Assembly: GCA_030685215.1 (NCBI GenBank)
Contig: JAUXQB010000087.1
Span: forward strand, 1 to 40,388
DNA: 40,388 bases
Direction: 5' to 3'
Source: Actinomycetota bacterium
Lineage (GTDB): Bacteria > Actinomycetota > Acidimicrobiia > Acidimicrobiales > Ilumatobacteraceae
Made by a program: the position numbers and the translations under genes. Positions 24,336 to 37,007 of this stretch are shown in pieces. How positions within the stretch are numbered: the stretch's first letter is position 1; each line of letters opens with the position of its first letter. The notes beneath the pieces are model-generated. The model was not told the origin of the DNA, did not search any database, and saw only the letters and a program-made list of their open reading frames with translations.

Positions 24336-24898
24336 ACGAGCACTCGATGTGGTACCTCTCGCGTGCGAGCGGCATGGTGGCGTGGATCGTGCTGGGCATC
24401 ACCTGTCTGTGGGGCATCCTGCTCGTCACGCGCATGCTGAAGCCGGCCGACCGCCCGGCCTGGCTGCTCGACCTCCACCGCTACCTCGGGGTGCTGTCAC
24501 TGGTCACCACTGCGGCCCACATGGCCGCGCTCGTCGGCGACAACTACGTGTACTTCGGTTGGCGCGAGTTGTTCGTGCCCCAGGCCAGCCCGTGGAACAC
24601 CGTCGCCATCTCGTGGGGCGTCATCGCGTTCTACCTGCTGGTGGTCATCCAGGTGTCGTCGTGGGCGATGAAGTGGTTGCCGCGCAGGCTGTGGCACGCG
24701 GTGCACCTGCTGTCGTACGCGCTGTTCGCGATGGTCACGGTGCACGGGTTCATGGCCGGCAGCGACAGCACCAACATCGTGTTCTTCGCAGTGGCGTGCG
24801 GTGGCATCGCCATCCTCACGTTCGCGTTCGTCGCGCGTGTGCTGCAGGGACGTGCCAAGCGAGTGCAGCGTGTAGCCCGTCTTGATGCTCAAGGGTAG
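24332..24898 (+). CDS. Ferric-reductase-like bis-heme membrane protein (no flavin domain)
   Basis: This is a 188-aa protein with five membrane helices, GTG start overlapping the apbE stop. Two His pairs fit the two-heme pattern of ferric reductase/NOX-type domains: H49 and H63 in one helix (DLHRYLG ... AAHMAAL) and H125 and H138 in another (AVHLLSY ... VTVHGFM). The protein ends shortly after the last helix, so the FAD/NAD(P)H module found in full ferric reductases is absent. It could pass electrons across the membrane to an outer acceptor such as Fe(III) or a flavinylated partner. The stop codon lies inside the iron box that controls the next gene. Confidence 0.85.
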   Translation: MNEHSMWYLSRASGMVAWIVLGITCLWGILLVTRMLKPADRPAWLLDLHRYLGVLSLVTTAAHMAALVGDNYVYFGWRELFVPQASPWNTVAISWGVIAFYLLVVIQVSSWAMKWLPRRLWHAVHLLSYALFAMVTVHGFMAGSDSTNIVFFAVACGGIAILTFAFVARVLQGRAKRVQRVARLDAQG

Positions 24899-24913
24899 GT
24901 ATGCCTAACATCA
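24882..24913 (+). promoter_or_regulatory. Iron-box promoter of the DtxR-family gene
   Basis: TTGATG (24882-24887) and TAACAT (24906-24911) are 18 nt apart; the -10 ends 6 nt before ATG 24918, so the message is probably leaderless. A DtxR/IdeR-like box at 24895-24913 (GTAGGTATGCCTAACATCA) overlaps the -10; it matches the known consensus in the AGGT-N3-CCTAAC core. This suggests iron-dependent autoregulation of the DtxR gene and the transporter genes behind it. Confidence 0.75.
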
Positions 24914-24917
24914 CCAC

Positions 24918-25619
24918 ATGAGCGGACCCGCTGCGTACTGTGAAGCGATCTTCGAGCTCGCGGAGGACGAGATCGACACCGTCCGCATCCGTGTGGCCGA
25001 ACGGTTGGGGGTGTCGCGCGCCGCCGTCTCGGAGATGGTGCAGCGCCTGGTGGAGATGGAGCTGGTGCGCCTCGAGGGCACGTCGATCCGGCTGACCGGC
25101 AGCGGCCGCGAGCTCGCCGAGCAGAGCGTGCGGCGGCACCGCCTGGCCGAGCGGCTGCTGGTCGACGTGCTCGGCCTGGGGTGGGCCGAAGCGCACGAGA
25201 TCGCCGGCACCTGGCAGCACGTCATCAACGATCGCACCGAGGCGGCCATCGACCGAGTACTCGGCTCGCCCACCACCTGCCCGCACGGCAACCCGATTCC
25301 CGGGTCCACTCCCGACGGCGCTCGCACGGCCGGCCTCGATCCGATGGCGGTCGGTCAGATGGCCGTCGGGTCGGTGGGCACCGTGTCGCGGGTGACCGAG
25401 CAGCTGGAGGTGCAGCCGGGCATGCTGGCATCGCTGGAACATGCCGGGCTGGTTCCCGGCACTCGCGTGGAAGTGCTGTCGATCGGCCACGACGGGTCGC
25501 TCGCGGTGCGAGCGTCGCGAGGGGTGCTCGCGCTCAGCAGCGCCACCGCCGCTCGCATCCTGGTCACCCCCGGCGACCTCGGCCAGATCAGCGACGCGGT
25601 GGCCCGTGGCCGTCACTGA
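24918..25619 (+). CDS. DtxR/IdeR-family metal-dependent repressor with altered primary metal site
   Basis: This is a 233-aa protein with the three DtxR domains: winged HTH (1-65), metal/dimer domain (66-135, with 'HRLAERLLVDVLGLGW' and 'PTTCPHGNPIPG') and an SH3/FeoA-like domain (about 150-225). By alignment from memory with mycobacterial IdeR, ancillary-site residues H74, E78 and H93 are kept, as is primary-site H101, but the other primary ligands differ: Met10 is Ala6, Cys102 is Gly97 and Glu105 is Gln100. Metal choice or affinity may therefore differ. It sits between the electron-transfer module and the Fe transporter genes, with iron boxes before itself and at 28615-28656, which it probably binds. 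Confidence 0.88.
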   Translation: MSGPAAYCEAIFELAEDEIDTVRIRVAERLGVSRAAVSEMVQRLVEMELVRLEGTSIRLTGSGRELAEQSVRRHRLAERLLVDVLGLGWAEAHEIAGTWQHVINDRTEAAIDRVLGSPTTCPHGNPIPGSTPDGARTAGLDPMAVGQMAVGSVGTVSRVTEQLEVQPGMLASLEHAGLVPGTRVEVLSIGHDGSLAVRASRGVLALSSATAARILVTPGDLGQISDAVARGRH

Positions 25620-26724
25620 CGCCACCGTCACCGTCACCGACGCCACCGTCACCGACGCAGCGTTGCCGATCTCCGGACTCGGCCACCTGCCGGCATCTAT
25701 TCGGGCTGCCGCACCGGCGCGCAGCCGGCGGTTCAGCACCAAGGCGATCGGGCTCGTCGGCTGTGCCGGTGCACTCGGGATCACCCTGCTGCTGTCACTC
25801 GCCATCGGCACCAAGCCGATCGCACTCGGCGACGTCGTCCGCGCGTTCACCGCGTTCGACGGGTCGAACGATCATCTCGTGGTGCGTGAACTGCGGTTGC
25901 CACGCACCTTGGTGGGGCTGGTGGTCGGTGCCGCGCTCGGCATGGCCGGCGCGCTGATGCAGGCCATCACCCGCAACCCGCTCGCCGATCCCGGGCTGCT
26001 CGGCGTCAACGCCGGCGCGGCGCTCGCGGTGGTCACCGCCATCTGGATGTTCGACTTCACGTCCGTCGGCTCGCTGGTGTGGTTCGCGTTCCTCGGCGCA
26101 GCGATCACGTCGGTGCTGGTGTTCGCGCTGGGGTCGCTGGGTCGCGGCGGTGCGACACCGGTGCGCCTGGCCCTCGCCGGTGCGGCGCTGTCGGCACTGC
26201 TGGCGTCGTTCACGTCGGCCATCACGCTGCTCGACCAGGCGACGCTCGACCAGTATCGGTTCTGGGCGGTCGGCTCGCTGGGCGGTCGCGACGAGACGGT
26301 GCTGATGCAGGTGTCGCCGTTCATCGCCGTCGGTCTGGTGCTCGGTCTCTGCTGCGCGTGGCCGCTCAACACGATGGGCCTCGGCGAGGAGACGGCCCGC
26401 GCGCTGGGCACGCGCGTCGGCTGGACCCGTGCGGTCACCGCGCTCGCGGTGACGTTGCTCTGCGGCGCGGCAACCGCCGCGTGCGGACCCATCGCGTTCG
26501 TCGGGCTAGTGGTGCCACTCGCTGCACGCGCGTTCACCGGGCCGGACCAGCGCTGGCTGTTGCCGTACTCGGCGCTGCTCGGGCCGGTGGTGCTGCTGAG
26601 CTGCGACATCGTCGGCCGTGTCGTCGCGAGACCGGCGGAGGTGCAGGTGGGCATCATGACCGCAGCGCTCGGTGGACCTGCGTTCGTGTGGCTGGTGCGC
26701 CGAGTGCGGATGGCCCAACTGTGA
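25606..26724 (+). CDS. FecCD-family iron/heme ABC permease, first
   Basis: This is a 372-aa permease with about ten membrane helices. Family motifs are 'LRLPRTLVGLVVGAALGMAG', 'QAITRNPLADPGLLGVNAGA' and 'ACGPIAFVGLVVPLAARAF'. Such permeases carry Fe-siderophores, heme or cobalamin with a binding protein and an ATPase. GTG 25606 lies inside the end of the DtxR gene (14-nt overlap). The first 60 residues are a non-membrane, Thr/Val/Asp-rich leader made by a DNA tandem repeat. The next gene codes a second permease, so the pore is probably a FepD/FepG-like heterodimer. Confidence 0.93.
   Translation: MAVTDATVTVTDATVTDAALPISGLGHLPASIRAAAPARSRRFSTKAIGLVGCAGALGITLLLSLAIGTKPIALGDVVRAFTAFDGSNDHLVVRELRLPRTLVGLVVGAALGMAGALMQAITRNPLADPGLLGVNAGAALAVVTAIWMFDFTSVGSLVWFAFLGAAITSVLVFALGSLGRGGATPVRLALAGAALSALLASFTSAITLLDQATLDQYRFWAVGSLGGRDETVLMQVSPFIAVGLVLGLCCAWPLNTMGLGEETARALGTRVGWTRAVTALAVTLLCGAATAACGPIAFVGLVVPLAARAFTGPDQRWLLPYSALLGPVVLLSCDIVGRVVARPAEVQVGIMTAALGGPAFVWLVRRVRMAQL
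25612..25660 (+). repeat. Short tandem repeat in the permease N-terminus
   Basis: The 15-bp unit GTCACYGACGCCACC occurs about three times, with one extra GTCACC between copies, and codes VTDAT units. It overlaps the end of the DtxR gene only at its first copy. Confidence 0.6.
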
Positions 26725-27788
26725 GCGTGCAGGCAGCGCCGGCGCGTCCCGCGTTCGTCACCGGTCGCGTAGCGCGCGGGTGCTCGTGGTCGGTGCGGTT
26801 CGATCCACACGCTCTCGGCGTGTGCGCGGTGCTCGCCGCACTGGTGGTCGTGGTCGGGTGCTGGTCGATCAGCGTCGGCGACTTCCCGATCCCCATCACC
26901 GACGTGGTGGCCACGATCTTCGGTGGCGGCAGCGATGACGCGCAGTTCATCGTCGAGACGCTGCGCCTGCCGCGTGTGCTCACCGGCATCATGGTGGGCG
27001 CGGCGTTCGCGGTGGCGGGCTCCATCTTCCAGTCGCTCGCACAGAACCCACTCGCTTCACCCGACGTCATCGGCTTCAACTCCGGCGCGGCGCTGGGTGC
27101 CGTGTTCACCATCGTCACCATTGGCGGCAGTTCGCTGCAGGTGTCGATCGGGGCACTCGTGGGCGGCTTCGCCACCGCGCTGCTGGTGTACTCGCTCGCC
27201 TGGAAGCGCGGGGTGCACGGCTATCGGCTGGTGCTGGTGGGCATCGGCATCGGCTTCGCCGTGAGCGCGGTGAACGACTACCTCATCACACGCGCCAACA
27301 TCTACGACGTGCAGCGCGCCGCTGTGTGGCTCACCGGCTCGCTCAACGGACGCGGATGGAACCATGTGCGACCGGTCGGTCTCGGCCTGCTCGTCCTGCT
27401 GCCGCCGGCGGTGTTCCTCGGTCGCCGGATGCGGCTGCTCGAACTGGGCGCCGACACCGCCGCTGCGCTCGGTGTGCACGTGGGCCGCAGCCGCGCCGCG
27501 CTCGCGCTCGTCGGCGTCGCGCTCGCCGCACTCGCCACCGCGTCGGCCGGCCCGATCGGCTTCGTCGCACTCGTCTCGCCACCTATCGCTCGCCGGCTGG
27601 TGCGCTCGCCGGGCGTCACCGTCGTGCCGGCGGCGCTGGTCGGGGCGTTGCTCACCGTGACCGCCGATCTTGCCGCCCGAAGGGTGTTCGCACCCACCGA
27701 ACTGCCCGTGGGCATCGCCACCGCGGTGATCGGCGCGCCGTACCTGCTGTGGCTGCTGACCCGTGAGATCCGAAGTGGAGCGATGTGA
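26721..27788 (+). CDS. FecCD-family iron/heme ABC permease, second
   Basis: This is a 355-aa permease with GTG start overlapping the previous stop (GTGA). Motifs are 'LRLPRVLTGIMVGAAFAVAG', 'QSLAQNPLASPDVIGFNSGA', 'WLTGSLNGRGWNHV' and 'ASAGPIGFVALVSPPIARRL'. It is the FepG-like partner of the first permease. Hydrophobic helices begin after about residue 30. It overlaps the ATPase gene at TGATG. The pair plus one ATPase makes a complete type-II importer core, to be served by the two binding lipoproteins encoded downstream. Confidence 0.93.
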   Translation: MSVQAAPARPAFVTGRVARGCSWSVRFDPHALGVCAVLAALVVVVGCWSISVGDFPIPITDVVATIFGGGSDDAQFIVETLRLPRVLTGIMVGAAFAVAGSIFQSLAQNPLASPDVIGFNSGAALGAVFTIVTIGGSSLQVSIGALVGGFATALLVYSLAWKRGVHGYRLVLVGIGIGFAVSAVNDYLITRANIYDVQRAAVWLTGSLNGRGWNHVRPVGLGLLVLLPPAVFLGRRMRLLELGADTAAALGVHVGRSRAALALVGVALAALATASAGPIGFVALVSPPIARRLVRSPGVTVVPAALVGALLTVTADLAARRVFAPTELPVGIATAVIGAPYLLWLLTREIRSGAM

Positions 27789-28612
27789 TGGACGACGTGC
27801 ACTCGAGGCTGGAGGCGCAGTCGATCCGCGTCGGTTACGACGAGCGGGTGATCATCGACGACCTCACCATGCACGTGCCCGACGGGCGCATCACGGCGGT
27901 GGTGGGTGCCAACGCGTGTGGCAAGTCGACGCTGCTCCGCGCACTCGCGCGGCTGCTGAAGCCGGCGTGTGGCACGGTGCTGCTCGACGGCGAGTCGATC
28001 CACTCGATGCGGACCAAGGAGGTGGCGCGACGCCTCGGCTTGCTGCCGCAGTCGGCCATCGCGCCCGACGGCATCACGGTGGCCGACCTGGTGGCGCGTG
28101 GGCGCGCCCCTCATCAACGCCTGCTGCAGCAGTGGTCGCGAGAGGACGAAGCGGCGGTGATCGGTGCGATGGAGGTGACCAACACGCTCGACCTCGCGCA
28201 CCGACCGGTCGACGAGTTGTCCGGCGGCCAGCGGCAGCGGGTGTGGATCGCGCTCACCCTCGCGCAGCGAACGCCGTTGCTGCTGCTCGACGAACCGACG
28301 ACGTTCCTCGACATCGCGCACCAGGTGGAGGTGCTCGATCTGGTCGCGGAGCTGAACGAACGCGACGGCACGACGGTGGTGATGGTGTTGCACGATCTCA
28401 ACCAGGCGTGCCGGTACGCGCACCACGTCATCGCGATGAAGGGCGGGGCCGTCGTCGCGAGCGGCGTCCCCACCGACGTGATCACCTCGACGCTGGTGCG
28501 CGACGTGTTCGGGCTCGACTGCGTGGTCATCGACGACCCCGTGGCCGGTACTCCGCTGGTGGTGCCGGCGGCGCGGCGGCCGTCGTGTGCTGCTGCGGCG
28601 CTCGTCGGCTGA
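27788..28612 (+). CDS. FepC/FecE-type ABC ATPase
   Basis: This is a 274-aa ATPase. Walker A is G40-T48 (GANACGKST), Q-loop Q88, signature LSGGQ 144-148, Walker B ending DEP at 168-170 (LLLLDEP), H-loop H202 in 'MVLHDLNQACRYAHH'. These, plus 'ITVADLVARGRAPHQ', are typical of Fe-siderophore/heme importers. I take ATG 27788 because it overlaps the permease stop (TGATG); GTG 27785 would add one residue. It ends just before the double-iron-box promoter, so it is the last gene of the DtxR-transporter unit. Confidence 0.95.
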   Translation: MDDVHSRLEAQSIRVGYDERVIIDDLTMHVPDGRITAVVGANACGKSTLLRALARLLKPACGTVLLDGESIHSMRTKEVARRLGLLPQSAIAPDGITVADLVARGRAPHQRLLQQWSREDEAAVIGAMEVTNTLDLAHRPVDELSGGQRQRVWIALTLAQRTPLLLLDEPTTFLDIAHQVEVLDLVAELNERDGTTVVMVLHDLNQACRYAHHVIAMKGGAVVASGVPTDVITSTLVRDVFGLDCVVIDDPVAGTPLVVPAARRPSCAAAALVG

Positions 28613-28614
28613 GA

Positions 28615-28661
28615 ATAGGTATGCCTTTCAACTTGTATTAGGTCTACCTAACAACTAGGTT
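28615..28661 (+). promoter_or_regulatory. Promoter with two iron boxes before the binding-protein genes
   Basis: TTGTAT (28633-28638) and TAGGTT (28656-28661) are 17 nt apart. Box 1 is 28615-28633 (ATAGGTATGCCTTTCAACT) and ends on the -35. Box 2 is 28638-28656 (TTAGGTCTACCTAACAACT) and fills the spacer. Both match the DtxR/IdeR consensus, box 2 best. A repressor bound here would block RNA polymerase, so strong iron repression is expected. The -10 ends 8 nt before ATG 28670. Confidence 0.8.
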
Positions 28662-28669
28662 GTGTCGCC

Positions 28670-28735
28670 ATGACGCCGCCCGACGAACCTTCCGTGCGCT
28701 ACGCCGAGCAGGTGTTGCAGGAGAGCGCGACATGA
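28670..28735 (+). CDS. Possible 21-codon leader ORF
   Basis: ATG 28670 opens a 21-codon frame (MTPPDEPSVR ... LQESAT) that stops at TGA 28733-28735 and overlaps the next start (ATGA at 28732-28735). It begins 8 nt after the -10, so it could be translated from a leaderless message and couple translation to the binding-protein gene. Seventeen of its 20 internal codons end in G or C. Its 3' part also contains the AGGAGA ribosome site of the next gene. No family is recognised. Confidence 0.45.
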   Translation: MTPPDEPSVRYAEQVLQESAT

Positions 28736-29703
28736 GTCGTGCCCGCCGATCGGCGCTCATGATCGTGGGACTTCTCGCCGTCGGTGCGTGCACGTCGGAG
28801 CCGCGCGCAACGGCGGCCACCACGCCCACGTCGGAGGCCGGCCCCCTCCTGCCGGTGAGCCTGGTCGACGGCACGGGCACCGCGGTCACCATCACCTCCG
28901 TGGATCGCATCGTGCCCGTCGACGGCGATCTCGCGGAGATCGTGTTCGCGCTCGGCCTCGGCGACCGAGTGGTGGCCACCGACATCTCGGCCACCTATCC
29001 GGCAGCGGCCGACGAGCTGCCGGAGATCGGCTATCAGCGCGCCCTGAACCCTGAGCCGATCGCGGCGATGGAGCCCACCGTGGTGCTCGCCACCGATCTG
29101 GCCCGTCCGGCGGAGACGCTGGAACAGCTGCGCGGTCTGGGCATCGCCGTGGTCGTGATCGAGCGCACGATGAGCATCGACGGGTTCGCCGCGAAGGTGC
29201 AGGCGGTGGCCGACGCGCTCGGCGTGCCACAGCGTGGCGCCGCGCTGGTGAGCACCATGCAGGCACAGGTCGCCGACGCGCGAGCCGCGGCACTTCAGGC
29301 GGGAGGCTCGCCACGCGTACTCGCGCTGTACCTGCGCGGCGAGCAGGTGCAGCTGATCTTCGGTCAGGGCACCGGCATCGATGCCGTGCTGCCCGCCGTC
29401 GGCGCCGTCGACGTCTCCACCGAACTGGGCATCGTCGACACGCAGCAGATGACCGCCGAGGCGATGTTGTTGGCAGCGCCCGACGTGCTGCTCGTCACCA
29501 CGTCCGGTCTCGAATCGGTCGGTGGCATCGACGGTCTGCTCGCCATCCCCGGCATCGCGCGCACGCCTGCCGGTCGCGAGCGGCGCGTGCTCGCCTACGA
29601 GGACCAATACCTGCTCGGCGGCGGCCCTCGCATCGGCGACCTGATGCTCGAGCTCGTCCGCGATCTCCACCCCTCCACTCCCAACACAGAAGGAACACCA
29701 TGA
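28732..29703 (+). CDS. HmuT-like heme ABC substrate-binding lipoprotein
   Basis: This is a 323-aa lipoprotein with lipobox VGAC and C20; ATG 28732 follows AGGAGA. The mature part is a two-lobed class III binding protein. 'PEIGYQRALNPEPIAAMEPTV' and 'GLGDRVVATDISATYP' follow the HmuT/ShuT heme-binding pattern rather than the FepB pattern. It should capture heme outside the membrane and hand it to the permease pair encoded upstream. A longer frame from 28660 exists but would bury the signal peptide. Its stop overlaps the next start (ATGA). Iron control is expected from the boxes at 28615-28656. Confidence 0.88.
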   Translation: MSRARRSALMIVGLLAVGACTSEPRATAATTPTSEAGPLLPVSLVDGTGTAVTITSVDRIVPVDGDLAEIVFALGLGDRVVATDISATYPAAADELPEIGYQRALNPEPIAAMEPTVVLATDLARPAETLEQLRGLGIAVVVIERTMSIDGFAAKVQAVADALGVPQRGAALVSTMQAQVADARAAALQAGGSPRVLALYLRGEQVQLIFGQGTGIDAVLPAVGAVDVSTELGIVDTQQMTAEAMLLAAPDVLLVTTSGLESVGGIDGLLAIPGIARTPAGRERRVLAYEDQYLLGGGPRIGDLMLELVRDLHPSTPNTEGTP

Positions 29704-31124
29704 AGCAGCTGCTCTCCCTCCTCACCATCGCCGGATTGGCGCTGGTCGCATGTGGACGCGACGACGAATCGTCCTCCACTGCGTCCAGCCCCAGCACGGG
29801 CGAGTCGACCGCGGCGACCGATCCCGCCGCGGCCGACTCGTTCCCCGTCACCATCGAGCACAAGTACGGCGAGACCACCGTTCCCGAGGAGCCGACGCGT
29901 GTCGTGTCGATCGGCTTCTCCGACCAGGACCTGTTGCTGGCACTCGGTGTCACTCCCATCGCGATCCGCGACTGGTACGGCGACCAGCCGTACGCCACCT
30001 GGCCGTGGGCACAGGACGAGCTCGGCGACGCGGAGCCGGAAGTGCTCTCCAGCACCGAGCTGAACTTCGAGCAGATCGCGGCGCTCGATCCCGATCTGAT
30101 CGTGGGCGTGTCGTCGGGCATGACCGACGCCGACTACGCCACGCTGTCGCAGATCGCCCCGACCCTCGCCCAGTCGGGTGACTACATCGACTACGGCATG
30201 CCGTGGGACGCGGCCACCGAGATGATCGGCGCGGCCACCGGCACGTCGGTGGAGGCCGCCGAGGTGATCGAGCGCGTCGAGGGCATGTTCGCCGCCGTGC
30301 GCGACGAGCACCCCGAGTTCACCGGCGCCACTGCCGGTGTCACGTTCCTCTTCGAGGGCGACCCGGGTGGCTACGCATCGCAGGACAGTCGGGCGCGCCT
30401 GCTGGGCGAGCTCGGGTTCGTCACCCCACCGGAGTTCGACGAGCTGTCGGGCGACGCGTTCTTCTTCACGGTGAGCTCGGAGGACATCTCGGTGCTCGAC
30501 ACCGACGTCATCGTGTGGATCGTCGGGTCCGACGACATCATCGCCGAGCTGGCCGAACTGCCCACGCGACAGGGCCTCACCGCCTTCGCCGAAGGTCGTG
30601 AAGTGGTCACCGACGCGCTGGTCAGCGGCGCCTTCTCGTTCGGCAGCCCGTTGAGCATCGAGTACCTGCTGGAGAACCTGGTGCCGGAACTGGCGCTCGC
30701 CGTCGACGGCGACCCGGCCACCGCGGTGCCGTCGGCCGAAGCGATCGGTGGCGGTGCCGCCGGCCCCGCGTCGGAGACCGGCGACGAGGCCGACGAGCAG
30801 GCAGCCATCGACACGTTCACCACCGTGTTCGACTCGGCCGTGCCGTTCGCCGACAAGGCCGACCTGTTGGAGAACGGTGCTGCGTTGCAGGCTGCGGCCG
30901 AGGCCTACACAGCGGCCGGCGAGACGATGGGCGGCATCACGTTGGCGCCCACCGGCGCGGTGATCGACGGCGACACGGCCACCATCACCTACGACGTGCT
31001 GTTCGGTGGCACCGCCGCCTACGAGGCGCTGACCAAGACCATCACCCGCGTCGACGGCGCGTGGATCGTGTCGCAGGCCGCGTTCTGCGAGTTCCTCTCG
31101 TCGGCCCGCGTCGTATGTCCGTGA
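29700..31124 (+). CDS. Fe-siderophore-binding lipoprotein fused to an MTB12-like domain
   Basis: This is a 474-aa lipoprotein (lipobox LVAC, C18). Residues about 45-345 are a FepB/FhuD-type binding protein: 'PEEPTRVVSIGFSDQDLLLALG', 'NFEQIAALDPDLIVGVSSGM' and 'YATLSQIAPTLAQ'. After a Gly/Ala/Glu linker, residues about 373-474 ('VFDSAVPFADKADLLENGAA' ... 'TKTITRVDGAWIVSQAAFCE') resemble mycobacterial low-molecular-weight antigen MTB12, by recall. The fused domain is unusual; it may bind a partner or the surface. It is coupled by ATGA to the heme-binding-protein gene, so one importer core may serve two ligand types. Confidence 0.85.
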   Translation: MKQLLSLLTIAGLALVACGRDDESSSTASSPSTGESTAATDPAAADSFPVTIEHKYGETTVPEEPTRVVSIGFSDQDLLLALGVTPIAIRDWYGDQPYATWPWAQDELGDAEPEVLSSTELNFEQIAALDPDLIVGVSSGMTDADYATLSQIAPTLAQSGDYIDYGMPWDAATEMIGAATGTSVEAAEVIERVEGMFAAVRDEHPEFTGATAGVTFLFEGDPGGYASQDSRARLLGELGFVTPPEFDELSGDAFFFTVSSEDISVLDTDVIVWIVGSDDIIAELAELPTRQGLTAFAEGREVVTDALVSGAFSFGSPLSIEYLLENLVPELALAVDGDPATAVPSAEAIGGGAAGPASETGDEADEQAAIDTFTTVFDSAVPFADKADLLENGAALQAAAEAYTAAGETMGGITLAPTGAVIDGDTATITYDVLFGGTAAYEALTKTITRVDGAWIVSQAAFCEFLSSARVVCP

Positions 31125-31152
31125 CCATCGTTCCCACCGACAGGAGCATCAC

Positions 31153-31243
31153 ATGAGCATCGTCCGCATCAACGCCATCACCGTGCCCGACCAGGGAGGT
31201 CCGGAGCTTCGACGTCGTCGACCTGCAGGCGGTCGCTCAATGA
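31153..31243 (+). pseudogene. Deletion remnant of an MhuD/IsdG-type heme-degrading oxygenase
   Basis: ATG 31153 follows AGGAG and opens 'MSIVRINAITVPDQGGPEL', which, from memory, matches the N-terminus of actinobacterial MhuD (V.INAIEVP..GPEL). The reading frame then becomes Arg-rich and unlike the family. One frame over, the bases just downstream read 'SFDVVDLQAVAQ' and stop at TGA 31241-31243, like the C-terminal strand of the family. The stop overlaps the next start (ATGA). The simplest reading is an internal out-of-frame deletion of about 70-80 codons near 31201-31209. An assembly error cannot be excluded. Confidence 0.7.
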
Positions 31244-32091
31244 CCACCGGCCCCGGCGACCCGCTCGCCGCCGTGGCACAGGTGGCGATCGATCATCTGA
31301 ACAGCGACCACGCCGAGGCGGTGCAGGTCGCCAGGCTGCGCACGTTCGTGACGACGGTGGTGAGGCGACGGGAACTGAACGACCGCCTGCTGCAGCTCAC
31401 CTTCGGTGGTGGCGATCTGGTCGAGTTCGAGCCGGTGGCCGCTGACCAGTTCGTGTACGTGCTGGCACCGCCGGCGGGTCGTCGCGAGCTCTCGATCGAC
31501 CAGCACTTCACGTGGACGCACTACGAGGCGATGCCCGTCGCCGATCGTCCTCGCGGTGCGTACTACTCGGTGCGTCACTGGCGGCCGGCGGTGGCGGAGA
31601 TGGATGTGATCGTGGTGCGCCACGACGGCGGCGAGGCGTCGGGCTGGGCCGAGCAGGTGACCGTCGGCGAGCCGGTCGCGGTGTGGGGGCCGCGTGAGGT
31701 CTACGCACCGCCGGCCGACACCGGCTCGCTGTTGCTGGTCGCCGACGAGACCGGTCTCCCGGCGCTGGCGGCCATCCTCGAGCACCGTCCTGCCCACCTG
31801 CAGGCGGTGGCCGTCATCGAGATCGACGACGAGTCGCACGCGATCCCACTCGCGGTGTCGCCCGCGGATCGCGTGGTGTGGCTCCGGCGAGGCGACGTGG
31901 CACCCGGCACGACCTCGCTGCTGCTCGACGCGGTGCGGTCCGTCGAGGTCCCCGCCGATGTCTACGCCTGGGGTGGCGCCGAGACGAAGGCGATGACCGC
32001 TATCCGCAGGTACCTGCGCGACGACGTCGGCCTTCCGCAAGAGCGTGTCGCCATGACCGGCTACTGGCGACTGCAGCCCCACGACGTGTGA
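31240..32091 (+). CDS. Siderophore-interacting FAD reductase with N-terminal DUF2470-like stretch
   Basis: This is a 283-aa protein. Residues 12-30 ('VAQVAIDHLNSDHAEAVQVA') look like the start of a DUF2470/HugZ-type heme-binding helix (H19, H24). From about 35 it is a SIP/ViuB ferric-siderophore reductase: 'RRRELNDRLLQLTFGGGDL', 'FTWTHYEAMP', 'AYYSVRHWRP', 'LLLVADETGLPALAAILE', 'YAWGGAETKAMTAIRRYLR' and a terminal 'MTGYWRLQ'. It uses FAD and NAD(P)H to free Fe from imported siderophore. I take ATG 31240, not 31153, because the upstream 29 codons are the oxygenase remnant. It is the last gene of the iron locus. Confidence 0.9.
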   Translation: MTTGPGDPLAAVAQVAIDHLNSDHAEAVQVARLRTFVTTVVRRRELNDRLLQLTFGGGDLVEFEPVAADQFVYVLAPPAGRRELSIDQHFTWTHYEAMPVADRPRGAYYSVRHWRPAVAEMDVIVVRHDGGEASGWAEQVTVGEPVAVWGPREVYAPPADTGSLLLVADETGLPALAAILEHRPAHLQAVAVIEIDDESHAIPLAVSPADRVVWLRRGDVAPGTTSLLLDAVRSVEVPADVYAWGGAETKAMTAIRRYLRDDVGLPQERVAMTGYWRLQPHDV

Positions 32092-32147
32092 GCGTTCGGT
32101 GCGCGACCCGGCCGTGTTCGGGCGGCGCCGCCGAGGGAGCTGCACGC

Positions 32148-32209
32148 TTCGGTCAGCTCAGCGACAACCTTTGCTGCACTTGGTGCAGGGAAACCTGTCG
32201 CTGACCGAA
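32148..32209. repeat. Nested inverted repeat after the iron locus
   Basis: The outer arm 32196-32209 (TGTCGCTGACCGAA) pairs with 32148-32166 (TTCGGTCAGCTCAGCGACA), leaving a 5-nt bulge on the left. Inside, CTGCAC (32174-32179) and GTGCAG (32183-32188) form a second stem with a TTG loop. It begins 57 nt after the SIP stop, so it may end the operon's transcript; there is no U-tract. An alternative stem, GAGCTG/CAGCTC at about 32137-32159, would exclude the outer stem. Confidence 0.6.
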
Positions 32210-32272
32210 ACGAACTGCCATGACTGGACTGCCCGAACCGCGTCCGACGCTCGGGCAATCAACGGAGGCCGG

Positions 32273-32278
32273 TACTCT
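32273..32278 (+). promoter_or_regulatory. Probable leaderless -10 of the VanZ-like gene
   Basis: TACTCT ends 6 nt before ATG 32285, with no ribosome site between. This supports the start at 32285 over the longer frame from 32099. Confidence 0.55.
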
Positions 32279-32284
32279 TCGGCG

Positions 32285-33217
32285 ATGGTCGTGGCCGTCA
32301 TCGCAGTGGCCGTGATCGCGGAGGTGAGCAGCGACGTCTCGGCGGTTGCGACGTCCGACGCGCTCGTCGCGCTGATCGGCCTCCTGCTGCTGTCGGGCGT
32401 GCTGGGCTCGGCTGTTGCTCGCCGATCCCGGCGAACCGAGCGTGGGTGGGTCGCCTGGTTCGGCGGCTTCGCGAGCGTCTCGCTCATCCTGGCGGTCACC
32501 CTCTGCCGTGACGGTCTTCCATCTGGGCGCACTGTCGGAACACTCGACGGCTGGTTCACCGAGACCATGACCAGCATTCCAGAGTCGTCGCTCGGCAGTA
32601 GCCAGTTCCTGCTCAACATCGTGCTGTTCGTGCCGGCCGGTGCGGTGTGGACGTGGCTCATCGGGCGCCCACTGCTCGTGCTCGGCGGCCTTGCCGCCTT
32701 CTCGATGGTCGTCGAAGCGGTGCAAGCGGTCGCTCATGTGGGGTCGCCCGACGTGGCGGACCTGCTCGCGAACACCGTCGGGGCGGGACTCGGTGTCGCT
32801 GCAGCGGTCATCCTTCGTCGAGTCGTCGGCAACCGCGGTCGCACGCTGTCGCCTCGCTCGCAGATGATCGTTGCAGGTGTCGTGGTCACCGTTGCTGTGC
32901 TCAGCATGGCCGGTTGGTTCGTCAGCGCCGCGCGCGCTCAGGAGCAGTTGGCCCGCGAGCTGCGCGATGCGTTCGAGGGCACTCATCGATCCAGCATCGA
33001 GACCTGGCTGGCCGACGATCCCGGCTCCGTGTTCGGCGCGGCGCCCGGGCACTACTCCACTGGCATCCGCCGATCCGACGACCGTCTCGAGATCCGCTAC
33101 CCGACGGACTTCTTCGGGCTCTCCCGTTGCGTCTTCGTGGTGTGGTCCGCCGACGGTGTCGACACTCGCCCCGAGTCGGGGCGCGACTGCACCGACTTCA
33201 TCGACGGCGACGTCTGA
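32285..33217 (+). CDS. VanZ-like membrane protein
   Basis: This is a 310-aa protein with about six membrane helices. 'LLNIVLFVPAGAVWTWLIGR' and 'FSMVVEAVQAVAHVGSPDVADLLANTVGAGLG' are the VanZ-like signature (N..lF.P.G and E..Q......D..D...N..G). The C-terminal 100 residues after the last helix are soluble, with two Cys, and are not part of the classic domain. VanZ in enterococci raises teicoplanin resistance, but most relatives have unknown roles and no resistance is implied here. The gene has its own leaderless-type promoter. Confidence 0.85.
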   Translation: MVVAVIAVAVIAEVSSDVSAVATSDALVALIGLLLLSGVLGSAVARRSRRTERGWVAWFGGFASVSLILAVTLCRDGLPSGRTVGTLDGWFTETMTSIPESSLGSSQFLLNIVLFVPAGAVWTWLIGRPLLVLGGLAAFSMVVEAVQAVAHVGSPDVADLLANTVGAGLGVAAAVILRRVVGNRGRTLSPRSQMIVAGVVVTVAVLSMAGWFVSAARAQEQLARELRDAFEGTHRSSIETWLADDPGSVFGAAPGHYSTGIRRSDDRLEIRYPTDFFGLSRCVFVVWSADGVDTRPESGRDCTDFIDGDV

Positions 33218-33304
33218 CGCAGCACGTCGGGCCCCTCGGCACGCTCACGGACTCGCGTTCAATGTGGGTGACCGGTGGCTGGCGGAAGATGGCAACCTTG
33301 GGGC

Positions 33305-33943
33305 ATGTACCGACCCGCGCACTTCGACATCGCCGATGCCGACGAGTTGCACTCGCTCTTGCAAGCGGCCGAGGCGCTGCACCTGATCACCTCGACGAGC
33401 GACGGCATGGATGCCTCGATGCTGCCGATGCTGTTCGATCCCGCGCCGGGCGAGCACGGTTCGCTCGTCGGCCATCTCGCGCGCGCCAACCCACAGTGGC
33501 GGGCGGGCGACGGCACGCCGGCGTTGGCCATCGTGCCCGGCGCAGATGCGTACGTGTCGCCGTCGTGGTACGCCACCAAGGCCGAGACCGGCAAGGTGGT
33601 GCCCACCTGGAACTACACGGTCGTGCACGTGCACGGGCACCTCCGGGTGCACGACGATCCGGAGTGGCTGGGCGCGCTCGTCCGCGCGCTCACCGACCGC
33701 CACGAGGCTGCGTTGCCGAGGCCGTGGTCCGTCGACGACGCGCCGCCCGACTACATCGCCGCCTCGCTGCGCGGCATCGTCGGCGTCGAACTGCGCATCG
33801 ACCGCATCGAGGGCAAGCGCAAGCTCAGCCAGAACCGCACCGCCGCCGACGTCGAAGGTGCGATCGCCGGGCTGTCCGGTCGCGAGCCTGCCTCGCAACG
33901 CGTCGCCGACGACATGCGCGCCGCGAGCGATCACTCCGACTGA
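33305..33943 (+). CDS. PaiB-like FMN-binding protein
   Basis: This is a 212-aa split-barrel protein matching 'FMN-binding negative transcriptional regulator': MYRPAHF at the start, 'GSLVGHLARANPQWRAG', 'VSPSWYATKAETGKVVPTWN', 'YTVVHVHGHLRVHDD' and 'KRKLSQNRTAADVEG'. PaiB of Bacillus was linked to sporulation and protease control; biochemical data on most homologs are thin, so an FMN-dependent enzyme role is equally possible. ATG 33305 follows CAACCT by 6 nt, as in other leaderless genes here. Confidence 0.92.
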   Translation: MYRPAHFDIADADELHSLLQAAEALHLITSTSDGMDASMLPMLFDPAPGEHGSLVGHLARANPQWRAGDGTPALAIVPGADAYVSPSWYATKAETGKVVPTWNYTVVHVHGHLRVHDDPEWLGALVRALTDRHEAALPRPWSVDDAPPDYIAASLRGIVGVELRIDRIEGKRKLSQNRTAADVEGAIAGLSGREPASQRVADDMRAASDHSD

Positions 33944-34026
33944 CCTGCCGGTTGGGTGCGGCGCGGCCGCCCTCCCTACCATCGCTGCAGAGGCTGCCCG
34001 GTCGGGCGCAGGAAACGAGGCATGCG

Positions 34027-35250: not shown

Positions 35251-35276
35251 ACAATCTGATCAGGTCTGACTAGACT
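35248..35276 (+). promoter_or_regulatory. Promoter/operator of the toxin-antitoxin pair
   Basis: TGAACA (35248-35253, starting on the preceding stop codon) and TAGACT (35271-35276) are 17 nt apart; ATG 35283 is 6 nt after the -10. Two palindromes lie within: CTGATCAG (35256-35263) and GTCT-N4-AGAC (35264-35275). They are good candidates for binding by the antitoxin, which usually represses its own operon. Confidence 0.6.
35251..35261 (+). repeat. 11-bp direct repeat, left copy
   Basis: ACAATCTGATC starts right after the acyl-CoA dehydrogenase stop. An identical copy is at 35913-35923, so the two flank the toxin-antitoxin genes. Confidence 0.55.
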
Positions 35277-35282
35277 CTCGCG

Positions 35283-35522
35283 ATGGCAGTCAGCATCTAC
35301 GAAGCCAAGACCCACCTGTCCCAACTCATCGCGCAGGTCGAGCAGACGGGCCAGGAGGTCGTCATCCGTCGGCACAACGTGCCGGTCGCAAAGCTGGTTC
35401 CATTCCGGCCGGTGTCGCCGCCGCGGGTGCTGGGTGGCTGGGAGGGTCAGGTCGTCATCCACGACGACTTCGACGACCTCCCGGCCGATGTCGCAGCAGC
35501 GTTCGCGGGCTCGCGCCCGTGA
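35283..35522 (+). CDS. Phd/YefM-family antitoxin
   Basis: This is a 79-aa protein. 'VSIYEAKTHLSQLIAQVEQT' and 'GQEVVIRRHNVPVAKLVPFR' are the DNA-binding N-terminal domain of Phd/YefM antitoxins. The acidic C-terminal tail ('HDDFDDLPADVAAAF') is the usual toxin-binding part. It should bind the next gene's toxin and repress the promoter just upstream. The toxin start overlaps its stop (GTGA). Confidence 0.92.
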   Translation: MAVSIYEAKTHLSQLIAQVEQTGQEVVIRRHNVPVAKLVPFRPVSPPRVLGGWEGQVVIHDDFDDLPADVAAAFAGSRP

Positions 35523-35902
35523 GACGGTTGCTCCTCGACACTCACGTCGCGCTGTGGGCGCTGTCCACCCCCAACGAGCTCGCGCCTCACGTTCGCGCTG
35601 CACTCGAAGACCCCCGCAACGAGGTGGTCGTCTCGGCTGCATCCGTGTGGGAGGTCGAGATCAAGCGGGCGATCGGCAAGCTCGACGCACCCGACGGCTT
35701 CGGGTCGGCATGCGCGGGCCGTGGCTTCGATGCCCTCGAGATCAGTTTCTCGCACGCCGAGGTCGCCGGTGCGCTGCCGCTGCATCATGGCGACCCGTTC
35801 GACCGCATGCTCATCGCGCAGGCATTGGTCGAAGGTCTCGAACTCGTCACCAAGGATCCCGCGTTCGCGCAGTACGGCATACAGGTGGTGGCGCCGAGCT
35901 GA
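35519..35902 (+). CDS. PIN-domain (VapC-type) toxin
   Basis: This is a 127-aa PIN-domain ribonuclease toxin with GTG start overlapping the antitoxin. The acidic active-site residues are present: D7 (LLLDTHVALW), E45 (SVWEVEIK), D92/D95 (HGDPFDRMLIAQA) and D113 (VTKDPAF). It belongs to the PIN subtype that pairs with Phd-like antitoxins and is predicted to cleave RNA when free. The gene is intact. Confidence 0.93.
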   Translation: MRRLLLDTHVALWALSTPNELAPHVRAALEDPRNEVVVSAASVWEVEIKRAIGKLDAPDGFGSACAGRGFDALEISFSHAEVAGALPLHHGDPFDRMLIAQALVEGLELVTKDPAFAQYGIQVVAPS

Positions 35903-35912
35903 TCGGGCGACC

Positions 35913-35923
35913 ACAATCTGATC
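35913..35923 (+). repeat. 11-bp direct repeat, right copy
   Basis: Same sequence as 35251-35261. It ends 1 nt before ATG 35925, and its CAATCT part may serve as the -10 of the next gene. Confidence 0.55.
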
Positions 35924-35924
35924 C

Positions 35925-37007
35925 ATGTCCACCATCGCGCTCAGTTCCTCGTACTCGTCAGCCCGTGCGGCGTTCCTCGCTGCGGCCGACGCGGCGGGTG
36001 CGGTGGTCGACACGTTCGAGCATCCGCTGCGCGGACCCGAGGGTGATCCGCTGGGCATCGACGTGGCCGAGCTCGGGCCGCGCGACGCGGCGACGGTGGT
36101 GCTCGTGGTCTCCGCGACGCACGGCGTCGAGGGCTACTGCGGCTCCGCGCTGCAGACCCACTGGCTCACCACGTGGGCCGACGAGCGTCCGCAACCGGTG
36201 CGCATCGTCAACATCCACGCGCTCAACCCGTTCGGCATGGCGTGGGTGCGGCGGGTGAACGAGGACAACGTCGACCTCAACCGCAACTTCGTCGACTGGT
36301 CGCAACCGCCGCCGCAGAACACGGAGTACGACGGCATCGCCGACGACGTGGTGCCCACCGAGTGGACCGCGGAGGCGCAGCAGCGCACGCTCGAGAGCCT
36401 GCTCGCACTCGTCGGTGAGTGGGGGCTACCCAAGTTGCAGGCGGTGGTGAGTGGCGGCCAGTACGCGCACCCGAAGGGCGTGTTCTACGGCGGCACCGGC
36501 GCAGTGTGGTCGCACCGCTGGTTGCGCGACTGGTGCGCCGCGAATCTCGCCGACGCGCAGCGCGTCGTCATCATCGACCTGCACACCGGTCTCGGGCCGT
36601 GGGGGCACGGCGAGCTCATCGCCAGCGCCGCCCCCGACGAACCGATGTTCCAGCGGGCGCTCGAGCTGTGGCCCGACTCGAAGTCGATGATGGCCGGCGA
36701 CAGCGTGTCGGCGGTGCTGGCCGGCGACTGGCTGGCGGTGGCCGACGAGCTGGCGCCACATGCTGAGGTCACCCCCATCTGCATCGAGTACGGCATCGTC
36801 GACCCGATCACCGTGCTGCAGTCGCTGCGCGCCGACGCGTGGCTGCACGGGTACGGCGACCCCACCGGTCCCGACGCGCCGGCCATCCGCGCGCAGGTCC
36901 GCGCCGCCTTCGCCGACGACGACCCTGCCTGGATCGCCACCTGCTGGCCGCGCTTCCACGAAGTGCTCGACGCGGCGCTCGCAGAGAGCCGTGCCGGTGC
37001 TCGCTGA
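35925..37007 (+). CDS. DUF2817 family, M14-like peptidase/deacylase
   Basis: This is a 360-aa protein. 'VVSATHGVEGYCGSALQ' (zinc His and Glu), 'NEDNVDLNRNFVDW' (M14-like substrate Arg/Asn region), 'DLHTGLGPWGHGEL' (third zinc ligand) and a late 'PICIEYGIVDPITVLQSLRA' (catalytic Glu) match DUF2817, a relative of M14 carboxypeptidases. It has no signal peptide, so it is likely cytosolic. Its natural substrate is not known. It lies 18 nt before a GH20 gene and may work with it in turnover of wall-derived glycopeptides, which is inference. Confidence 0.88.
   Translation: MSTIALSSSYSSARAAFLAAADAAGAVVDTFEHPLRGPEGDPLGIDVAELGPRDAATVVLVVSATHGVEGYCGSALQTHWLTTWADERPQPVRIVNIHALNPFGMAWVRRVNEDNVDLNRNFVDWSQPPPQNTEYDGIADDVVPTEWTAEAQQRTLESLLALVGEWGLPKLQAVVSGGQYAHPKGVFYGGTGAVWSHRWLRDWCAANLADAQRVVIIDLHTGLGPWGHGELIASAAPDEPMFQRALELWPDSKSMMAGDSVSAVLAGDWLAVADELAPHAEVTPICIEYGIVDPITVLQSLRADAWLHGYGDPTGPDAPAIRAQVRAAFADDDPAWIATCWPRFHEVLDAALAESRAGAR

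Follow-up and report, generated by a model that had tools for sequence, protein, structure and literature searches.

In an Actinomycetota bacterium of the Ilumatobacteraceae, the short region 31153-31243 in front of a siderophore-interacting protein gene (SIP gene) carries both ends of an MhuD-type heme oxygenase gene (mhuD) in the correct order, the second end one reading frame over from the first. The window, i.e. the whole stretch of DNA analyzed, comprises 40,388 nt of the forward strand of contig JAUXQB010000087.1 (assembly GCA_030685215.1), and all genes described below are on the + strand. We consider it likely, at a probability of roughly 0.7, that mhuD lost its middle by an internal deletion inside a gained cassette in which SIP was kept, which would be a case of ordinary gene loss.

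The two remnants of mhuD

The N-terminal remnant consists of 19 codons in frame 0 (31153..31209), with a Shine-Dalgarno sequence AGGAG (31142..31146) positioned 6 nt 5' of its start; the protein match extends to about codon 22 (31218). Translated from ATG 31153, frame 0 reads MSIVRINAITVPDQGGPELRRR. The MhuD-type N-terminus (M-x-V-V-K-I-N-A-I and kin) is present in this sequence by both profile and PDB match. When the 29-residue piece was compared to the PDB with phmmer, five sequences were obtained at E<=10, all of them with the N-terminus of Rv3592 (MhuD; E 0.026-0.061). Profiles built by hand from 7, 12 and 12 rows were used to score all peptides of the window and of six other loci from the source genome. 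The observed N-terminal score of 42 bits is reached by two of 88,017 22-mers, the remnant itself and the intact MhuD of the genome, which is a profile member; the next-best peptide has 20 bits. A search of the whole source genome with the MhuD of a relative had the intact copy as its top match; 31153-31257 came next (E 0.02), followed by two further matches at E 0.6-0.9.

The C-terminal remnant, RSFDVVDLQAVAQ, is encoded in the +1 frame (31202..31243) and ends with the stop TGA at 31241-31243. This old mhuD stop overlaps the SIP ATG as ATGA (31240..31243). With the tail profile, three of 1,098 stop-terminated peptides reach the score of the tail: the tail itself, the tail of the intact MhuD from the same genome (again a profile member), and one unrelated peptide which scores slightly higher. 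The tail match taken alone is modest and counts against a deletion; the arrangement of both mhuD ends in correct order, with Shine-Dalgarno sequence and ATGA overlap, counts for it. The codons TTC GAC GTC GTC of the tail are identical in three of the six intact mhuD genes compared.

The strongest evidence against a chance resemblance is homology-free and comes from codon usage, for which eight neighboring genes (2,504 codons) served as reference. Until 31209, frame 0 has the codon usage of a coding sequence (log2 odds +9.9), and beyond this position it is anti-coding (-10.0). The +1 frame shows the reverse, with -11.8 before 31209 (not counting the TGA at 31154) and +6.9 beyond it. A model with one frame switch reaches 21.7 when the switch is set at 31195, its best position, vs -0.1 without a switch, and the eight best switch points fall within 31186-31207 (scores 17.7-21.7). 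From this breakpoint scan, the junction zone in which frame 0 gives way to +1 is placed at 31186..31212, its exact base not being fixed.

Compared to an MhuD-type heme oxygenase (IsdG-like, Pfam ABM), the remnant shares the N-terminal 22 residues and the C-terminal motif SFDVV but is devoid of most of the ABM domain and is not an enzyme. The ABM model (PF03992, 78 positions) has no match at E<=1 in 31153-31239 or in the 312-aa frame described below. Because almost the whole domain is gone, no heme oxygenase is to be expected from the remnant.

An earlier note, made from the letters of the window, had described an MhuD-like N-terminus, a preserved ribosome site, an MhuD-like C-terminus one frame over, and the ATGA overlap with SIP. 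All four are confirmed: the N-terminus by the PDB match, the 22-mer scan and the search of the source genome, the C-terminus by the tail profile, the shared motif and the codon-usage switch. Its view that mhuD was internally deleted is the best reading of the two ends and the frame switch; that an intact mhuD stood at this site until recently, as it suggested, we can only infer.

The same site in related genomes

An alignment-based scan of genome contigs for relatives of the locus returned 15 loci, where a previous scan had returned none. The earlier note had suggested looking for a mhuD of about 100 codons between the binding-protein and SIP genes of relatives. By an MhuD profile search of the loci, such a gene was found in no relative examined. 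Because no relative shows this gene order, we infer the deletion of mhuD at this exact spot from the remnant.

The cassette of genome G029, from the same family, is similar in content but differs in gene order. Sequence identities are 52% for the binding protein 1-like protein, 52% for the WKL-type domain (which forms the end of binding protein 2 in the window), 62% and 68% for the permeases, 67% for the ATPase and 49% for SIP, which in G029 is fused to an N-terminal DRI domain (see below) and is directly followed by an intact mhuD. At this place (locus L091, 5701-7246), the intact mhuD that adjoins DRI-SIP has a histidine-rich insert. The existence of such a cassette with MhuD and DRI both whole speaks for the deletion. 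In G032 and G513 no mhuD intervenes, the gene of binding protein 2 (58%) directly overlapping that of DRI-SIP in an ATGA. The lack of an intact mhuD at this position in all genomes examined, and of any gene between binding protein 2 and SIP in these two, speaks against it. Among 18 SIP-bearing genomes, the source genome included (G512, G513, G519 and G589 being outside this set), MhuD was matched in 17, and beside SIP only in G029.

The C-terminal extension of binding protein 2 is a WKL-lipoprotein-like domain (30786-31121; NF053527, E 4e-12, below cut-off). It was considered as a third deletion scar and rejected, since G032, G348 and G513 likewise have a binding protein with this extension attached. 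The match in G029 covers only the WKL-type domain itself.

The SIP core and its probable DRI remnant

The SIP core (31336..32088; FAD_binding_9 and SIP domains) is of the ferric-siderophore reductase type according to Pfam (PF04954, 109.3 bits, and PF08021, 65.2 bits, both above cut-off), structural model and fold match. Its fold matches solved SIPs, best 4yhb from T. fusca (E 6.8e-23), and the FAD- and NAD-binding core is complete. On this basis the reductase core is intact, and ferric-siderophore reduction is its predicted remaining activity. The protein differs from an ordinary SIP such as 4yhb by a leader derived from mhuD and by a probable stub of a DRI (DUF2470) domain.

Dri1, a DUF2470 protein, binds heme, and the domain has been renamed DRI (PMC11014987). 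The histidines described there are His16/His21 plus His79, and in the part of that paper available a DRI-SIP fusion is reported for a small group of Pseudomonadota, the only group named (PMC11014987).

Many related SIPs have a domain of about 100 residues at their N-terminus. In five SIPs picked for a long N-terminus, PF10615 was found in all, four times above cut-off and once (L086) just under. The window SIP belongs to the same kind of cassette as the DRI-SIP of G029, with about 40-51% identity to DRI-SIP fusions in the SIP part, but its DRI would be cut to about 18 residues. This probable remnant (31279..31332), assigned by position, profile and comparison to related SIPs with PF10615, has QVAIDHLNSDHAEAVQVA at the place where DRI begins and then leads directly into the SIP core. 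Its motif HLNSDH has a histidine pair with the HxxxxH spacing of Dri1 His16/His21; the region of the third histidine (His79) is absent. PF10615 is matched neither by the fused protein (E<=1) nor anywhere else in the genome (E<=10). In the profile scan the stub ranks first of 91,881 18-mers, with 22.04 bits vs 21.99 for the best chance peptide, and because this margin is tiny the stub is argued more by position than by score. The N-terminus of SIP has probably been shortened by an in-frame deletion that removed most of a heme-binding DRI domain.

Alternatively, SIP could be naturally short, its lineage never having had a DRI domain, so that only mhuD was deleted. The marginal score of the stub agrees with this, as does the distribution of DRI in a SIP tree of 28 hand-picked rows (excluded were L084, in which the search pattern found none, the partial L044 and L092, duplicates and distant SIPs). 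Among the 27 other rows, labeled by eye from their N-termini, 18 are with and nine without DRI, the former including L087, which looks frame-shifted, and L099, the N-terminus of which is cut by a contig end. The best tree has six DRI changes, three of which are forced by the starred branches alone. The sisters G025 (L037, without DRI) and Ilumatobacter nonamiensis L086 (with DRI; support 99/96) differ in this respect, and therefore a gain or loss of DRI occurs nearby. The position of the window SIP is without firm support, but DRI is present in four of the five rows with the shortest path to it, and the stub stands at the start of DRI with the proper histidine spacing. We regard a SIP that was never fused to DRI as possible yet rather unlikely.

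The iron cassette and its substrate

The genes ahead of the region are organized as a cassette which, together with SIP, comprises a DtxR-type metal-dependent regulator (24918..25619), FecCD-type permeases 1 (25684..26724) and 2 (26706..27788), an ABC ATPase (27785..28612), binding protein 1 (Peripla_BP_2; 28687..29703) and binding protein 2 (29700..31124); the starts of both permeases and of binding protein 1 are uncertain. The region 31153-31243 lies between the binding protein 2 gene and SIP. The sequence TAGGTATGCCTAACATC at 24885-24917, 5' of the regulator gene, is a candidate DtxR/IdeR iron box, judged by its resemblance to the consensus.

The earlier note had taken the cassette for a heme importer left without local heme degradation, a view which the data support on neither point. 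The best NCBIfam models are DtxR for the regulator and Fe-siderophore/enterobactin types for the permeases and the ATPase (iron-enterobactin for the latter), all below their cut-offs. For permeases and ATPase, the best transporter models are not heme-type; a heme model ranks fifth for the ATPase. The heme-import reading finds no support in these models. The transporter looks siderophore-type, a tentative assignment because all model matches are below cut-off. A candidate for another heme oxygenase, for which the earlier note had proposed a search, is present in the genome. It is an intact MhuD-like protein of 103 aa whose gene lies on another contig (C60:13429-13737; E 1.5e-16 to MhuD in the PDB), and it is matched in six of 15 genomes of the genus, the source genome included. 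Beyond this copy and the remnant there is no MhuD match below E 0.5 in the genome, nor any match to the heme oxygenase family PF01126 at E<=0.1.

A genomic island

Five of the 14 other genomes of the genus (G002, G003, G009, G010 and G014) have an empty site, with both flanks on one contig and 31-121 bases apart. The stretch 24871..33974 is thus missing there, its edges being defined within about 100 bases. In the other nine genomes, the loci compared do not contain both flanks. SIP has no match at E<=0.001 in any of the 14. It is found at E<=1e-30 in 10 of 221 genomes of the family, the source genome included, and all SIPs in 346 plasmid records have <60% identity. The most plausible interpretation of the cassette is that of a horizontally gained island, about 9 kb in size. 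That the contig as a whole is foreign was ruled out, as genus-typical DNA is present on both sides of the cassette on the same contig.

SIP is closely followed by a repeat (32118-32268) that measures up to about 150 bases and contains inverted arms (32148-32214). It occurs in at least 12 further places on other contigs of the same genome (81-90% identity), and there is none in the 14 genus-mates among the matches listed; it is REP- or MITE-like by look only. Outside the island, 35283-35902 encodes a small gene pair, read from its sequence as a putative antitoxin and a PIN-domain toxin. Genome G014 joins 35251 to 35939 with 16 bases between, and therefore this toxin-antitoxin-like pair is missing at that place in G014.

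Assembly quality

The finding rests on one genome, a draft of 340 contigs that is 92.4% complete and 3.7% contaminated, and the two missing stretches are about 130 bases apart. Both circumstances would fit an assembly or strain-mixture error by which an intact mhuD, and part of DRI, was dropped from the draft. Against this, the assembly contains no second version: there is one SIP match at E<=0.001, and neither a DUF2470 match nor a further MhuD match at the thresholds given above. SIP stays in frame at both sites. As a control, 432 kb of the source genome, in which some short contigs are represented as N and yield no matches, were compared to 1.2 Mb sampled from G003. None of 129 G003 reading frames (>=45% identity) has an internal deletion of at least 25 codons here, a control that is blind to deletions within genes of the small size of mhuD. 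It revealed two small events, one leaving the source genome longer by net 19 bases and the other leaving G003 longer by net 49. We consider an assembly error improbable.

The open fusion frame and the start of SIP

A point overlooked by the earlier note, as were the probable shortening of SIP and the island, is that frame 0 is stop-free from 31153 through SIP, so that the mhuD N-terminus is in frame with SIP in an open frame of 312 aa (31153..32091). By the same simple test that detects the ribosome site of mhuD, the SIP ATG at 31240 has no 4-base Shine-Dalgarno match, and because of this the mhuD start is the likely present start of SIP. Since frame 0 runs into SIP, translation now probably begins from the mhuD ribosome site and gives SIP a 29-residue leader. 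Promoter and terminator scans over 31000-32400 found none.

In an AlphaFold model (11 sequences), residues 1-60 have pLDDT 38-59 as 10-residue means, and 24 of the 26 ten-residue blocks beyond residue 60 have at least 83. Two of the ten frame 0 codons after the junction end in G or C. The earlier note had named SIPs that naturally begin with this N-terminus as a finding that would refute it; none of the SIPs examined begins in this way. That the fused 29 residues and the DRI stub are a new functional leader of SIP, serving localization, stability or regulation, agrees with the open frame, the only good ribosome site and a low-confidence modeled helix at residues 37-60, but is very improbable given the low pLDDT, the anti-coding codon usage in frame 0 past the junction, and its being shared by no relative examined.

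Proposed course of events

According to the internal-deletion reading, the gained siderophore-uptake cassette would once have had an mhuD gene located after binding protein 2 and ahead of SIP. A deletion inside this gene, perhaps with short matching sequences as its endpoints, would have taken about 70-105 codons (intact relatives have 103-136) and brought the start of mhuD up against its tail in a different frame. Whether through chance or through selection, frame 0 would then have entered SIP, with the mhuD ribosome site starting a SIP of 312 aa. A second, in-frame deletion has probably removed most of the DRI domain of SIP.

A more far-reaching version, which we find doubtful, is that both heme-linked modules, MhuD and DRI, were stripped by two separate small deletions, each of which kept SIP in frame. 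This would have deprived a ferric-siderophore reductase of its response to heme, leaving it unregulated and using the ribosome site of a dead enzyme.

Implications

The observation itself is right and well supported, and what it shows is, for the most part, the ordinary decay of a gene within an acquired cassette. It provides a small, readable case of gene loss becoming gene fusion. The SIPs of L086 and G025 offer a natural pair with and without DRI. In Actinomycetota, some SIPs are fused to DRI, and the location of such a fusion beside MhuD in G029 suggests that heme status and the release of iron from siderophores may be tied to each other.
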